This document shows, one piece after another, positions 255 to 42,056 of a stretch of 64,000 nucleotides of DNA. A program made the position numbers and the translations under genes. The stretch's first letter is position 1; every line of letters starts with the position of its first letter. A model generated the notes under the pieces. The model saw only the letters and a list, made by a program, of their open reading frames with translations. It had not been told where the DNA came from and did not search any database. This DNA is from Anaeromyxobacter dehalogenans 2CP-1 (GTDB taxonomy: Bacteria > Myxococcota > Myxococcia > Myxococcales > Anaeromyxobacteraceae): assembly GCF_000022145.1 (NCBI RefSeq), contig NC_011891.1, positions 4,322,501 through 4,386,500 of the forward strand. Direction: 5' to 3'.

Positions 255-1028
255 ATGGCCGGCATCGAGGGGCGCGTGGCGCTGGTCACCGGCGGTGGGC
301 GCGGCATCGGGCGCGCCATCGCGCTCGCGCTGGCGCGCGCCGGGGCCGACGTGGCGGTGTCGGCCCGCAGCGTGCCGGAGATCGAGGCGGTGTCGGCGGA
401 GGTGGCGGCGCTCGGGCGCCGCACCCTGTTCCTGCCGCTCGACGTCTCGGACCGCGCGCAGCTCGCCGCCGCACCGGCGGCGGTGGCGGCCCGGCTCGGC
501 CCGGTGGACGTGCTCGTCAACAACGCAGGGATCCACGCGAGCGCGCCGCTGCAGCGCATGGACGACGAGACCTGGGACGCGCTCGTCGCGGTGGACCTCA
601 CCGCCCCGGTGCTGCTCACCCGAGCGTGCCTGCCCTCGATGTACGACCGCGGCTTCGGCCGCGTGATCAACGTCTCCTCGGTGGCGGGCCGGATCGGCCT
701 GAAGTACGGCTGCGCCTACTCCTCGGCCAAGCACGGGCTCATCGGCTTCACCCGGAGCCTGGCGCTGGAGGCGGCGCGCAAGGGCGTGACGGTGAACGCG
801 ATCTGCCCGAGCTGGACGGAGACGCGGATGCTGGACGAGGCGGTCGAGGACATCGCCCGCGCCACCGGTCGCAGCGAGGCGGAGGCGCGCGCGGCGATCC
901 TGAGGGCGAACCCGCTCGGCCGCGCGGCGCTGCCGGAGGAGGTGGCCGACGCGGCGGTGTTCCTCGCGCTGAACGGCGCGGTCACCGGCCAGGCCCTCCA
1001 CGTCGACGGCGGCGAGGTGATGGCCTGA
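255..1028 (+). CDS. SDR family NAD(P)-dependent oxidoreductase
   Basis: A 257-residue classical short-chain dehydrogenase/reductase. The N-terminal Rossmann cofactor motif reads TGGGRGIG (about residues 12-19), NNAG follows near residue 89, the catalytic Ser is in INVSS, and YSSAK gives the Tyr-x-x-x-Lys pair. The C-terminal GQALHVDGGEVMA is typical of FabG/3-hydroxybutyrate dehydrogenase-like members. The ATG at 255 is chosen because GGGAGG lies just upstream and the fold begins there; an in-frame start at 87 would add an implausible Arg/Pro-rich leader. The substrate cannot be told from sequence. It stands alone, convergent with the OmpA-family gene. Its TGA stop codon lies inside the dispersed repeat that begins at 1025. 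Confidence 0.93.
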   Translation: MAGIEGRVALVTGGGRGIGRAIALALARAGADVAVSARSVPEIEAVSAEVAALGRRTLFLPLDVSDRAQLAAAPAAVAARLGPVDVLVNNAGIHASAPLQRMDDETWDALVAVDLTAPVLLTRACLPSMYDRGFGRVINVSSVAGRIGLKYGCAYSSAKHGLIGFTRSLALEAARKGVTVNAICPSWTETRMLDEAVEDIARATGRSEAEARAAILRANPLGRAALPEEVADAAVFLALNGAVTGQALHVDGGEVMA

Positions 1029-1184
1029 GAGCACGTGATCCCCTCCCGTCGCCGCGGCGGCCGATCCGCGTCGCATCGCTTCGTTGCTCCTCCCTCACAT
1101 GCCGACGGGCATGCTCGGTCGTCGCGCCTCGCGCTGCTCGCGGCTCGACCGCCTGGCTCGGTCCGGGGATGGATTCACGCGCTC
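1025..1184 (+). repeat. Copy A of 160-bp dispersed repeat (inverted partner at 41515-41679)
   Basis: This stretch is nearly identical to the reverse complement of 41515-41679. By eye the differences are one 5-nt indel (ACCCA absent here) and one substitution. It begins at CTGAGAGCACGTGA, so its second to fourth bases are the stop codon of the SDR gene. It contains a 6-bp dyad CATGCC-GACG-GGCATG at 1098-1113. One frame starting at TTG 1084 encodes a peptide with MPTGMLGRRASRCSRLDRLA that is also encoded by the other copy. No transposase or terminal target duplication is visible. Confidence 0.9.
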
Positions 1185-8684: not shown

Positions 8685-11600
8685 ATGTCCGTCACCCGAC
8701 GCCAGTTCCTTCAGCTCACCGCCGCCGGCGTGGGCAGCACCGGCCTGGTCGCGCTGGGCTTCTCCCCGGATCGCGTCCTCGCCGACGTCCGCAACTTCAA
8801 GCTGTCGCGCACCGCCGAGACGCGGAACACCTGCCCGTACTGCTCGGTGGGCTGCGGCGTCATCCTCTACACGCTGGGCGATCGCTCCAAGAACGCGCAC
8901 AGCGCGGTGATGCACGTCGAGGGCGATCCCGACCACCCCGTGAACCGCGGCACGCTCTGCCCGAAGGGCGCGTCGTTGCTCGACTTCGTCCAGAGCCCGA
9001 ACCGCCTGCGCTACCCCGAGTACCGCGCGCCCGGCTCCGACAAGTGGGAGCGCGTCACCTGGGACTGGGCGCTCGACCGGATCGCGCGCCTCATGAAGGA
9101 CGACCGCGACAAGAACTTCGTCGCGAAGAACGCGGCGGGCGTGACGGTGAACCGCTGGCCCACCGTCGGCCTGCTGGCCGCGAGCGCCTCGTCGAACGAG
9201 ACCGGCTACATCACCCACAAGGTCTGGCGCGCGCTGGGCGGGGTCGCGATCGACAACCAAGCACGTGTTTGACACGGTCCAACGGTGGCCGGTCTGGCCC
9301 CCACGTTCGGCCGTGGCGCGATGACGAACAGCTGGGTCGACATCAAGAACGCCAACCTCGTCCTCGTCATGGGCGGCAACCCCGCCGAGGCGCACCCCTG
9401 CGGCTTCAAGTGGGTGGTCGAGGCGAAGGCGCACAACAAGGCGCAGCTCATCGTGGTCGACCCGCGCTTCACGCGGACCGCCGCGGTCGCCGACGTCTTC
9501 GCGCAGATCCGCCCGGGCACCGACATCGCGTTCCTGGGCGGCGTCATCCGGCACCTGCTGGAGAAGGACGCGATCCAGAAGCAGTACGTGACCGCGTACA
9601 CCAACGCCTCGCTCATCGTGAAGGAGGGCTACGGCTTCCAGGACGGCCTGTTCTCCGGGTACGACGAGGCGAAGCACACCTACGACAAGTCGACCTGGTC
9701 GTACGAGACCGGACCGGACGGCTTCGCGAGGAGCGACCCGACGCTGCAGGACCCGCGCTGCGTGTACCAGCTCATGAAGAAGCACTACGCGCGCTACACG
9801 CCGAAGATGGTGGCGGACATCACCGGCGTGCCCGAGGCCGCGTTCACGCGCATCTGCGACGCGATCGCCACCACCTCCGCGCCGGACCGCACCATGACGG
9901 CGCTGTACGCGCTCGGCTGGACGCAGCACTCGGTCGGCTCGCAGAACATCCGCTGCATCGCGATGATCCAGCTGCTGCTCGGCAACGTGGGCATGGCCGG
10001 CGGCGGCGTGAACGCGCTGCGCGGCCACTCCAACATCCAGGGGCTGACCGACCTCGGCCTGCTCTCCGACCTGCTGCCCGGCTACCTCACCGTGCCGCGC
10101 GACGCGGACACCGACGTCGAGACGTACCTGGCGAAGCGGACCCCGAAGCCGCTCCGGCCCGGCCAGATGAACTACTGGCAGAACTACCCGAAGTTCTACG
10201 CGTCGCTCATGAAGGCCTGGTACGGGAAGGCCGCCACCAAGGAGAACGGCTGGGCGTACGACTACCTGCCCAAGCTCGACAAGGTCTACGACATCCTCGC
10301 GGTCTTCGACCTGATGCACCAGGGCAAGGTGAACGGGTACCTCTGCCAGGGCTTCAACCCGCTCGCGTCGATCCCGAACAAGCCCAAGCTGCTCGAGTCG
10401 CTCTCGAAGCTGAAGTTCCTCGTCACCATCGACCCGCTCGTCACCGAGACCTCGAACTTCTGGCAGAACCACGGCGACCTCAACCCGGTCGAGTCCGCGA
10501 AGATCCAGACCGAGGTGTTCCGGCTGCCCTCCAGCTGCTTCGCCGAGGAGGACGGGTCGCTGGTGAACTCCGGGCGCACGCTGCAGTGGCACTGGAAGGC
10601 GGCCGAGCCGCCCGGCGAGGCGAAGGGCGACCCCGAGATCGTCGCGGCGCTCTTCACCCGCATCCGGGCGCTCTACGAGAAGGAGGGCGGCGCCTTCGCG
10701 GATCCGATCCGCGACCTGACCTGGGACTACAAGATCCCGCGCGCGCCGTCGGCCGAGGAGCTCGCCCGCGAGTTCAACGGCAAGGCGCTCGCGGACGTGA
10801 AGGACCCCAAGGCGGATCCGAAGGACCCGAAGGCCCCGCTGCTGGCGAAGGAGGGCGAGCAGCTCGCCACGTTCGCGCACCTGCAGGACGACGGCAGCAC
10901 CGCGTCCGGCAACTGGCTGTACTGCGGCTCCTTCACGCAGGCCGGCAACCAGATGGCGCGCCGCGACGTCTCCGACCCGAGCGGCCTGGGCGTCACGCCG
11001 TCCTGGGGCTGGTCGTGGCCGGCCAACCGCCGCGTGCTCTACAACCGCGCCTCCTGCGATCCGTCCGGGAAGCCGTGGGACAAGAACCGCAAGCTGGTCT
11101 GGTGGAACGGCGCGAAGTGGGTCGGGCACGACGTGCCGGACTTCAAGATCGACTCGAAGCCCGAGGAGGGCATGTCGCCCTTCATCATGAACCCGGAGGG
11201 CATGGGCCGGCTGTTCGCGCTCGACAAGATGGCCGAGGGGCCGTTCCCCGAGCACTACGAGCCGTTCGAGTCGCCGGCGGCGTCGAACGCGATGCACCCG
11301 AAGGTCGGGCCGAACCCGGCCGCGCGCATCTTCCCCGGCGACAAGGCGCAGCTCGGGCTGCCGGGTGAGTTCCCGTACGCCGCGACCACCTACCGCGTGG
11401 TGGAGCACTTCCACTTCTGGACCAAGCACGCGCGGATCCCGTCGGTGCTCCAGCCCGAGCTGTTCATCGAGCTGGACGAGGTGCTCGCCGGCAAGAAGGG
11501 CATCCGCAGCGGCGACGCCGTCGCGGTCCGCTCGAAGCGCGGCCGCATCGTGGGCAAGGCCGTGGTCACCAAGCGCATCAAGCCCCTGAAGATCGCGGGC

Positions 11601-41352: not shown

Positions 41353-41514
41353 GGCGTTCCCCCTCACGTGATCGGGGTCGCCGCCGGCGCGGAAGTCGCG
41401 CCGCGAGCCCCGCTGCCGCGAGATGATACGTGGCGGGGGTCCGCCGGCAACTTCGCGGCAGGGCACGCGATCCGGCGCTGCGACACGCCGCCGCGGCGGC
41501 AGCGGCGGCGCTCG

Positions 41515-41679
41515 GAGCGCGTGAATCCATCCCCGGACCGAGCCAGGCGGTCGAGCCGCGAGCAGCGCGAGGCGCGACGACCGAGCATGCCCGTCGGCAT
41601 GTGAGGGAGGAGCAACGACGCGATGCGACGCGGATCGGCCGCCGCGGCGACGGGAGGGGATGGGTTCACGTGCTCTCAG
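41515..41679 (-). repeat. Copy B of 160-bp dispersed repeat (inverted partner at 1025-1184)
   Basis: Read on the minus strand it matches copy A over its full length, with the 5-nt ACCCA insertion and one substitution noted there. It too begins CTGAGAGCACGTGA, and the TGA (41678-41676) is the stop codon of the adjacent hypothetical gene. The CATGCC/GGCATG dyad is at 41586-41601. A minus-strand frame encodes the same MPTGMLGRRASRCSRLDRLA peptide. It lies upstream of the beta-barrel gene. Confidence 0.9.
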
Positions 41680-42056
41680 CGGCCGCGCGCGAGCACCAGG
41701 CCGGTGCGGGCGGTCAGCTCGGTGGTGCGGGCGAGGAGCGACTGCGCCTCCGCGTACAGCGGATCGGCGTCGCCCGCCTCCTCTGCCGGGAGCTCGCCGA
41801 TGCGCGCGAGCAGGTCGGTCACGCGGAGCAGGTGCTGGTGCGCGAGCAGGAGGTCGCGCCCGAGCCGCGCGCCCTGGCGCGTGAAGATGAGGCCGCTCTG
41901 GAACAGCCGCGAGAGGCCGCGCCGGTTCACCTCGTCCACGCCGCGGCAGCGCGCCTGCAGCTCGCGCAGCCGGCGCGACTCGCGCGCCTGCGCGAGGTCC
42001 ACCACCGTGGACGGGCTCGCGGCGGCGCGGCGCGATCGGGGGAGCGGGGACGGCAT
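41676..42056 (-). CDS. Small hypothetical protein, helical and Arg/Leu-rich
   Basis: A 126-residue basic protein without a signal peptide or recognised family. It looks all-helical (ESRRLRELQARCRGVDEVNRRGLSRLFQSG; RLGRDLLLAHQHLLRVTDLLARIGEL), possibly a coiled coil. Coding-like composition and a clean ATG at 42056 support it. Its TGA lies inside repeat copy B. It is downstream of alaS on the same strand, 111 bp away. Confidence 0.65.
   Translation of the reverse strand: MPSPLPRSRRAAASPSTVVDLAQARESRRLRELQARCRGVDEVNRRGLSRLFQSGLIFTRQGARLGRDLLLAHQHLLRVTDLLARIGELPAEEAGDADPLYAEAQSLLARTTELTARTGLVLARGR

Follow-up and report, generated by a model that had tools for sequence, protein, structure and literature searches.

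MITEs at gene ends in Anaeromyxobacter dehalogenans 2CP-1: insertion with duplication of a TGA that is mostly a stop codon, and an IS1182-family element with similar ends

Background

Why should two nearly identical pieces of noncoding DNA, lying in opposite orientations in one region of a bacterial chromosome, each start exactly at the stop codon of a different gene? This question is raised by a 64,000-nucleotide stretch of the chromosome of Anaeromyxobacter dehalogenans 2CP-1 (NC_011891.1, positions 4,322,501 to 4,386,500; hereafter the window, with positions counted from its first letter). The original prediction, made from the letters of the window alone, considered recent spread, selection or gene conversion for the pair, and a target preference or a role at gene ends for the junction with the stop codon. 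Here we describe the pair as two members of a MITE family, and compare the family with its empty sites, with an insertion sequence in the same genome and with its relatives in other genomes.

Results and discussion

The two copies in the window

Over the 160 bp queried, the copies differ by one 5-nt gap and one T/G substitution (96% identity), as predicted, and in both of them the adjacent gene indeed has its in-frame stop at the TGA within the CTGAG junction, this gene being an SDR-like dehydrogenase gene for copy 1 and a 126-aa ORF for copy 2. The gap corresponds to 5 nt (ACCCA) close to the left end which are absent from copy 1 when compared with copy 2, and just past the originally proposed end of the element the right flanking trinucleotide is TGA in copy 1 versus CGA in copy 2. 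The ORF upstream of copy 1 spans 87–1028, with the M of MAGIEG at about position 255 as its likely start, and has a coding score of 103 and a GC3 of 0.99 as far as its TGA stop. The features of the two loci are as follows:

255–1028, + strand: gene upstream of copy 1, SDR-like oxidoreductase (TGGGRGIG and YSSAKHG motifs)
1026–1028, + strand: left TGA of the target duplication of copy 1, the stop codon of the SDR-like gene (single TGA at the empty orthologous sites in relatives G001 and G002)
1029–1184, + strand: MITE copy 1, end to end without the duplicated TGA (ends GAGCACGTGA...TTCACGCGCTC)
1044–1164, − strand: conserved structured core of copy 1, the − strand being the one that folds (covariance model R1, 128 bits)
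1185–1187, + strand: right TGA of the target duplication of copy 1
1272–2972, − strand: convergent neighbour to the right of copy 1, OmpA-like C-terminal region (ORF list)
41512–41514, − strand: right-end trinucleotide of copy 2, CGA and not TGA
41515–41675, − strand: MITE copy 2, end to end without the duplicated TGA, 161 bp
41535–41655, + strand: conserved structured core of copy 2, the + strand being the one that folds (covariance model R1, 126.5 bits)
41676–41678, − strand: left-end target duplication of copy 2, the TGA stop of the 126-aa ORF
41676–42056, − strand: gene upstream of copy 2, a 126-aa ORF beside an alaS-like gene (ORF list; coding score 45)

No Rfam family matches the element in the window at gathering score, and there was no credible match among its relatives. 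The only Rfam match in the window is a SECIS_3 selenocysteine insertion element at 9267–9325 on the + strand (RF01989, 80 bits, gathering score 63), which implies a selenoprotein gene at that position.

A family of 46 full copies on the chromosome

A blastn search of the complete chromosome (5,029,329 bp) recovered 41 full-length or nearly full-length copies with 93–100% identity, together with fragments, and the flanks are unique to each copy. End-pattern matches and analysis of the individual loci bring the total to 46 full copies, in addition to partial or broken ones. The element is about 161 bp long and is bounded by GAGCACGTGAACCCATCC on the left and, as inverted repeat, GAGCGCGTGAATCCATCC on the right, with terminal inverted repeats of about 20 bp around a core of about 122 nt, and as a whole it forms one foldback hairpin. 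The aligned copies have NTGA next to the left end and TGAN next to the right end, a minority type having one additional A between the TGA and the left end, and the orientation relative to the TGA is identical in 46/46 full copies. The high identity of the window copies could be taken as a sign that ordinary intergenic DNA was duplicated locally or underwent gene conversion, but this is refuted by the genome-wide count of at least 41 copies, whose flanks are unrelated and whose junctions are precise, and by the empty sites described below, and we regard it as virtually out of the question. The family is thus neither an isolated pair nor one lacking a link to stop codons.

Several loci show further rearrangement. 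Two miniature remnants, L012 (chromosome position ~992487) and L048 (91826–91873), consist of two element ends fused together, apparently by deletion of the hairpin, and one of them was then adjoined by a new full copy. Tandem MITEs with one CTGAG in common are found at L014/L015, L031 and L039, where a further element has inserted at the TGA on the right of a copy already present, while at L034 several copies of the short tandem repeat 'acgttcacggtgggtcc' lie to the right of the MITE.

Insertion duplicates a TGA in an asymmetric target

Related strains contain the empty sites which the original prediction proposed looking for. Two relatives have GGCC-TGA-AGACGG where 2CP-1 has GGCC-TGA-element-TGA-AGACGG, and three further empty sites agree with a single TGA before insertion. 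The TGA is therefore a 3-bp target duplication, and as the TGA is duplicated the gene retains its stop codon; at L001 no sequence was lost at the insertion site and the 3-bp TGA was duplicated. Most of the sites tested are empty in close relatives, while L009 is also occupied in relative G001, and hence some insertions are not unique to 2CP-1. The MITE is thus mobile, as demonstrated by insertion polymorphism, and the recent spread suggested for the window copies is borne out by the number of copies (at least 41) and by the polymorphism relative to two relatives.

The consensus of the reconstructed empty sites is asymmetric, CTGA-GCGC (insertion after the A; fuller form CTGAGCGC), with C preceding the TGA in 87% of sites and the GCGC following it in 84, 68, 79 and 74%, respectively, and the left side otherwise nearly unconstrained. 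With an asymmetric target all 46 copies face one way, which places the left end at the stop codon. A symmetric palindromic target was considered and rejected: the CTNAG core is palindromic, yet the wider consensus is not symmetric.

At about eight copies CGA replaces TGA at the right, partly clustered in one sub-lineage; these include L003, L004, L005, L021, L022, L027 and L042, four of which belong to one haplotype. The right trinucleotide (CGA or TGA) may travel along with the element, and the CGA copies are left unexplained by plain target duplication.

An IS1182-family insertion sequence with similar ends

Five MITE copies have a longer left flank in common, which is a 1.5-kb insertion sequence encoding a 427-aa transposase of the IS1182 family (NF033551, 370 bits with a cut-off of 270, E=2e-110) of the DDE type. 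The original statement that no transposase is near holds locally, but this transposase, with similar ends, is found in 10 copies elsewhere on the chromosome; it is absent from eight congeners. The ends of the insertion sequence are GAGAGCGTGAAGGAATC and GGGACCGTGAAGTAATC, and it has TGA at both sides in the same orientation as the MITE, mostly at stop codons, with an in-frame stop at most of the left flanks which are not formed by a MITE. The first 11 bases of one MITE sub-lineage are identical to the start of the insertion sequence, whereas overall the ends are similar rather than identical, with at best 14/17 positions matching on the left and 11/17 on the right. Among the genus genomes searched, the insertion sequence and a high MITE copy number co-occur only in 2CP-1. 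Based on the similar ends and the same TGA duplication, this insertion sequence is likely to mobilise the MITE. A curated insertion sequence annotation for strain 2CP-1 has been published (PMC3129680), and the insertion sequence itself may therefore be catalogued already.

Five of the 10 insertion sequence copies (L094–L098) directly adjoin a MITE, each inserted exactly at the TGA of its left foot. The adjoining MITEs are of at least three haplotypes, and hence the five insertions are separate, as if hairpin feet were preferred targets.

As the insertion sequence is absent from MITE-bearing relatives, other transposases, or transposases since lost, must have acted there. In other myxobacteria IS1182-family elements share ends with some relatives of the core and are flanked by CTAG, for example CTAG-AGCGCCGAACAGGTT and CTAG-CAGGCTGCTGAAAA. 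A matched IS1182 element was not found for every end type, and when the ends of MITEs were compared with those of NF033551 elements of the same genome, in 13 further genomes, only similar ends were obtained, in a few cases. Within the autonomous insertion sequence the core was not found, the sole match (19 bits) lying inside the transposase gene.

A covarying core that folds on one strand

The core was aligned from 33 relatives in many genomes, between the bounds TCCCGTCGCC and GGCTCGGTCC. All 33 fold into a single long hairpin with small, purine-rich and highly conserved internal loops; compensatory changes are seen at 39/50 pairs, and 96.3% of the alignment cells are paired, versus 35–47% in slid controls. 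The folding strand has 126 G-U pairs against 9 A-C mismatches, a bias common to ends and core, from which it follows that selection keeps only one strand foldable, and this strand is the antisense of the upstream gene. The two strands have RNA folding energies of −115.9 versus −93.3 kcal/mol, and DNA parameters give the same order (−59.1 versus −47.6 kcal/mol).

Such a fold, better on one strand by a large margin even with DNA parameters, together with the uniform orientation of all full copies relative to the TGA, is what would be expected if the element were REP-like or IS200/IS605-like, with an HUH (Y1) transposase moving it in the form of single-stranded DNA. We consider this quite improbable, as the Y1 (PF01797) matches in 2CP-1 are weak (best 7e-5) and none was found linked to the element, the duplication is a clean 3 bp, the insertion sequence with similar ends is a DDE element, and the replication-strand bias is not clear (about 24 versus 17 of the 41 blastn copies, with the position of the origin assumed).

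Relatives of the core carry other ends and use other stop triplets

Using a covariance-model search, the core was found in 40/193 Myxococcota genomes from 27/90 genera, frequently in multiple copies, and an exact core motif scan detected further cores with terminal repeats in records titled Planctomycetota, Elusimicrobia and Binatia; motif hits lacking terminal repeats, such as those in Halobiforma and Rothia, are probably due to chance. Spread by phage was also considered, and is rejected with a single viral contig only. With element boundaries at these broad loci set from the covariance model, the terminal repeats are lineage-specific, and include TGA-GAGCCTGTGAA, CTAG-AGCGCCGAACAGG, TAG-AGCGCATGTCACAA and CTAG-CAGGGTGCTGAAAA among others, as well as TCA-GAGGCCGTGAA in another lineage, where the stop is at the right end. 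In sub-families with a palindromic duplication (CTAG, TTAA) either end can adjoin the stop. An in-frame TGA, TAG or TAA is present at the junction in 18/71 broad loci (strict window) versus 0.5% at random positions in the same loci, using a gene model which misses many genes outside Anaeromyxobacter. From its conservation across unrelated ends we infer that the core may be a cis-acting mobilisation signal, which would be needed with any IS1182-type ends.

The placement directly after a stop codon, and the very stable and covarying hairpin, would also fit a functional gene-end element (a terminator, RNA-stabilising hairpin or regulatory RNA) selected for the benefit of the upstream gene, as the original prediction had suggested among its options. 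This is unlikely, however, because selection for folding acts on the antisense strand relative to the upstream gene, so that the best-folding strand is not its mRNA, and because the CTAG and TTAA sub-families occur with either end at the stop. Against it are also the tested sites, mostly empty in close relatives, and the arrangement of neighbouring genes, which shows operon avoidance only. Strand and orientation tests likewise argue against a terminator or 3'-UTR role, and we regard any such function as improbable.

How much of the stop-codon pattern is survival?

In-frame stops were called in 2CP-1 with a codon-usage score trained on its genome and a simple home-made gene caller. At 38/49 left junctions the upstream gene ends in frame at the left TGA; of the remaining ones, five come after another MITE or the insertion sequence, and L012 comes after a MITE remnant which itself abuts a stop. 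With the latter counted in, 39/44 primary sites are at an in-frame stop, in agreement with the predicted target preference at gene ends, and the five primary sites not at a stop still carry the same TGA. In a 464-kb sample of the genome, used to calculate the expectation, stops make up 45% of noncoding CTGAG sites, or 71% when the comparison is restricted to stops and convergent intergenic sites, and after weighting by the full target consensus they represent 46% of noncoding sites and 12% of all sites. The observed 39/44 differs from an expectation of 46% with p ~3e-9, and from one of 70% with p ~0.003. Purging of insertions within genes thus accounts for much of the pattern, leaving an approximately two-fold excess at stops which depends on the simple gene caller and on the assumption that all intergenic sites are equally tolerated.

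This excess could be read as active targeting, in which gene ends are sensed by the machinery or by the folded core, for instance through terminated translation, the ends of transcription or the feet of hairpins, over and above mere survival there. The frequency of stops exceeds both the target-matched noncoding expectation and that for stops plus convergent intergenic sites, relatives with other ends also use TAG and TAA stops, half of the insertion sequence copies have the TGA at the base of a MITE hairpin as their exact site, and IS1272, of the same family, targets hairpins which are often terminators (PMC4923244). On the other hand, some sites with this TGA are not at stops, much of the share of stops is already expected from a target sequence including a stop triplet together with the loss of coding insertions, intergenic sites may be counter-selected as promoters, and the empty sites fold only slightly more strongly than other stops. 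We therefore think active targeting rather unlikely, and would put forward with similarly little confidence a joint claim on the core: that this structured module is itself selfish and works in the form of one folded strand of RNA or DNA, that it has been combined with the ends of many different IS1182-like transposons in several phyla, and that it directs insertion actively to TGA, TAG and TAA stops.

The account we favour, and consider probable, is that of a MITE family mobilised by IS1182-type transposases at targets containing a stop triplet, with the stop restored and coding insertions purged. An IS1182-family DDE transposase, supplied in trans, would cut the ends of the MITE, and insertion at the asymmetric C-TGA-GCGC with a 3-bp stagger would duplicate the TGA and set one fixed direction. 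A TGA serving as stop codon would be restored by the duplication, leaving the gene intact, and removal by selection of insertions within genes would let copies build up at gene ends.

Comparison with known mobile elements

Foldback MITEs and IS1182 elements are already known kinds. The foldback-hairpin MITEs ERIC, Correia/NEMIS and RUP are 100–200 bp long, imperfectly palindromic over their full length, present in dozens of copies, without an ORF and mobilised in trans, and the 2CP-1 element resembles them in all these respects; it differs in that it inserts on stop codons and restores the stop, and in a core that is kept across unrelated terminal repeats and phyla. REP/BIME sequences with their RAYT transposases are palindromic, located at gene 3' ends and oriented, as is the element described here, but the latter has a target duplication and a linked Y1 transposase was not found. 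Rickettsia palindromic elements are located inside ORFs and are translated; they share with our element the hairpin structure, a similar size and the tight link with reading frames, whereas the 2CP-1 element abuts the stop and leaves the protein unchanged.

The closest likeness by transposase is with the IS1182 family members IS1272 and TnSha1, through the transposase family of the partner insertion sequence, the location at gene ends and the five insertion sequence copies at hairpin feet. IS1272 and TnSha1 remove the hairpin which they target, and show neither a duplication nor a consensus in primary sequence (PMC5678879, PMC4923244), in contrast to the 3-bp TGA duplication, sequence-specific asymmetric site and fixed orientation seen here; stem-loop deletion of the IS1272 type without duplication was not encountered, the TGA being duplicated. 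In the literature searched, which covered few subscription papers, there was no earlier account of stop-restoring insertion or of the core.

Conclusions

With the stop codon itself as the target duplication, the family has a clean solution for life in a compact genome, as it can insert at gene ends without altering a protein. If the system is active, it would lend itself naturally to the tagging of genes at their 3' ends. The strand-specific hairpin core, common to elements with unrelated terminal repeats, offers a testable lead on how IS1182-type elements choose hairpins and gene ends.
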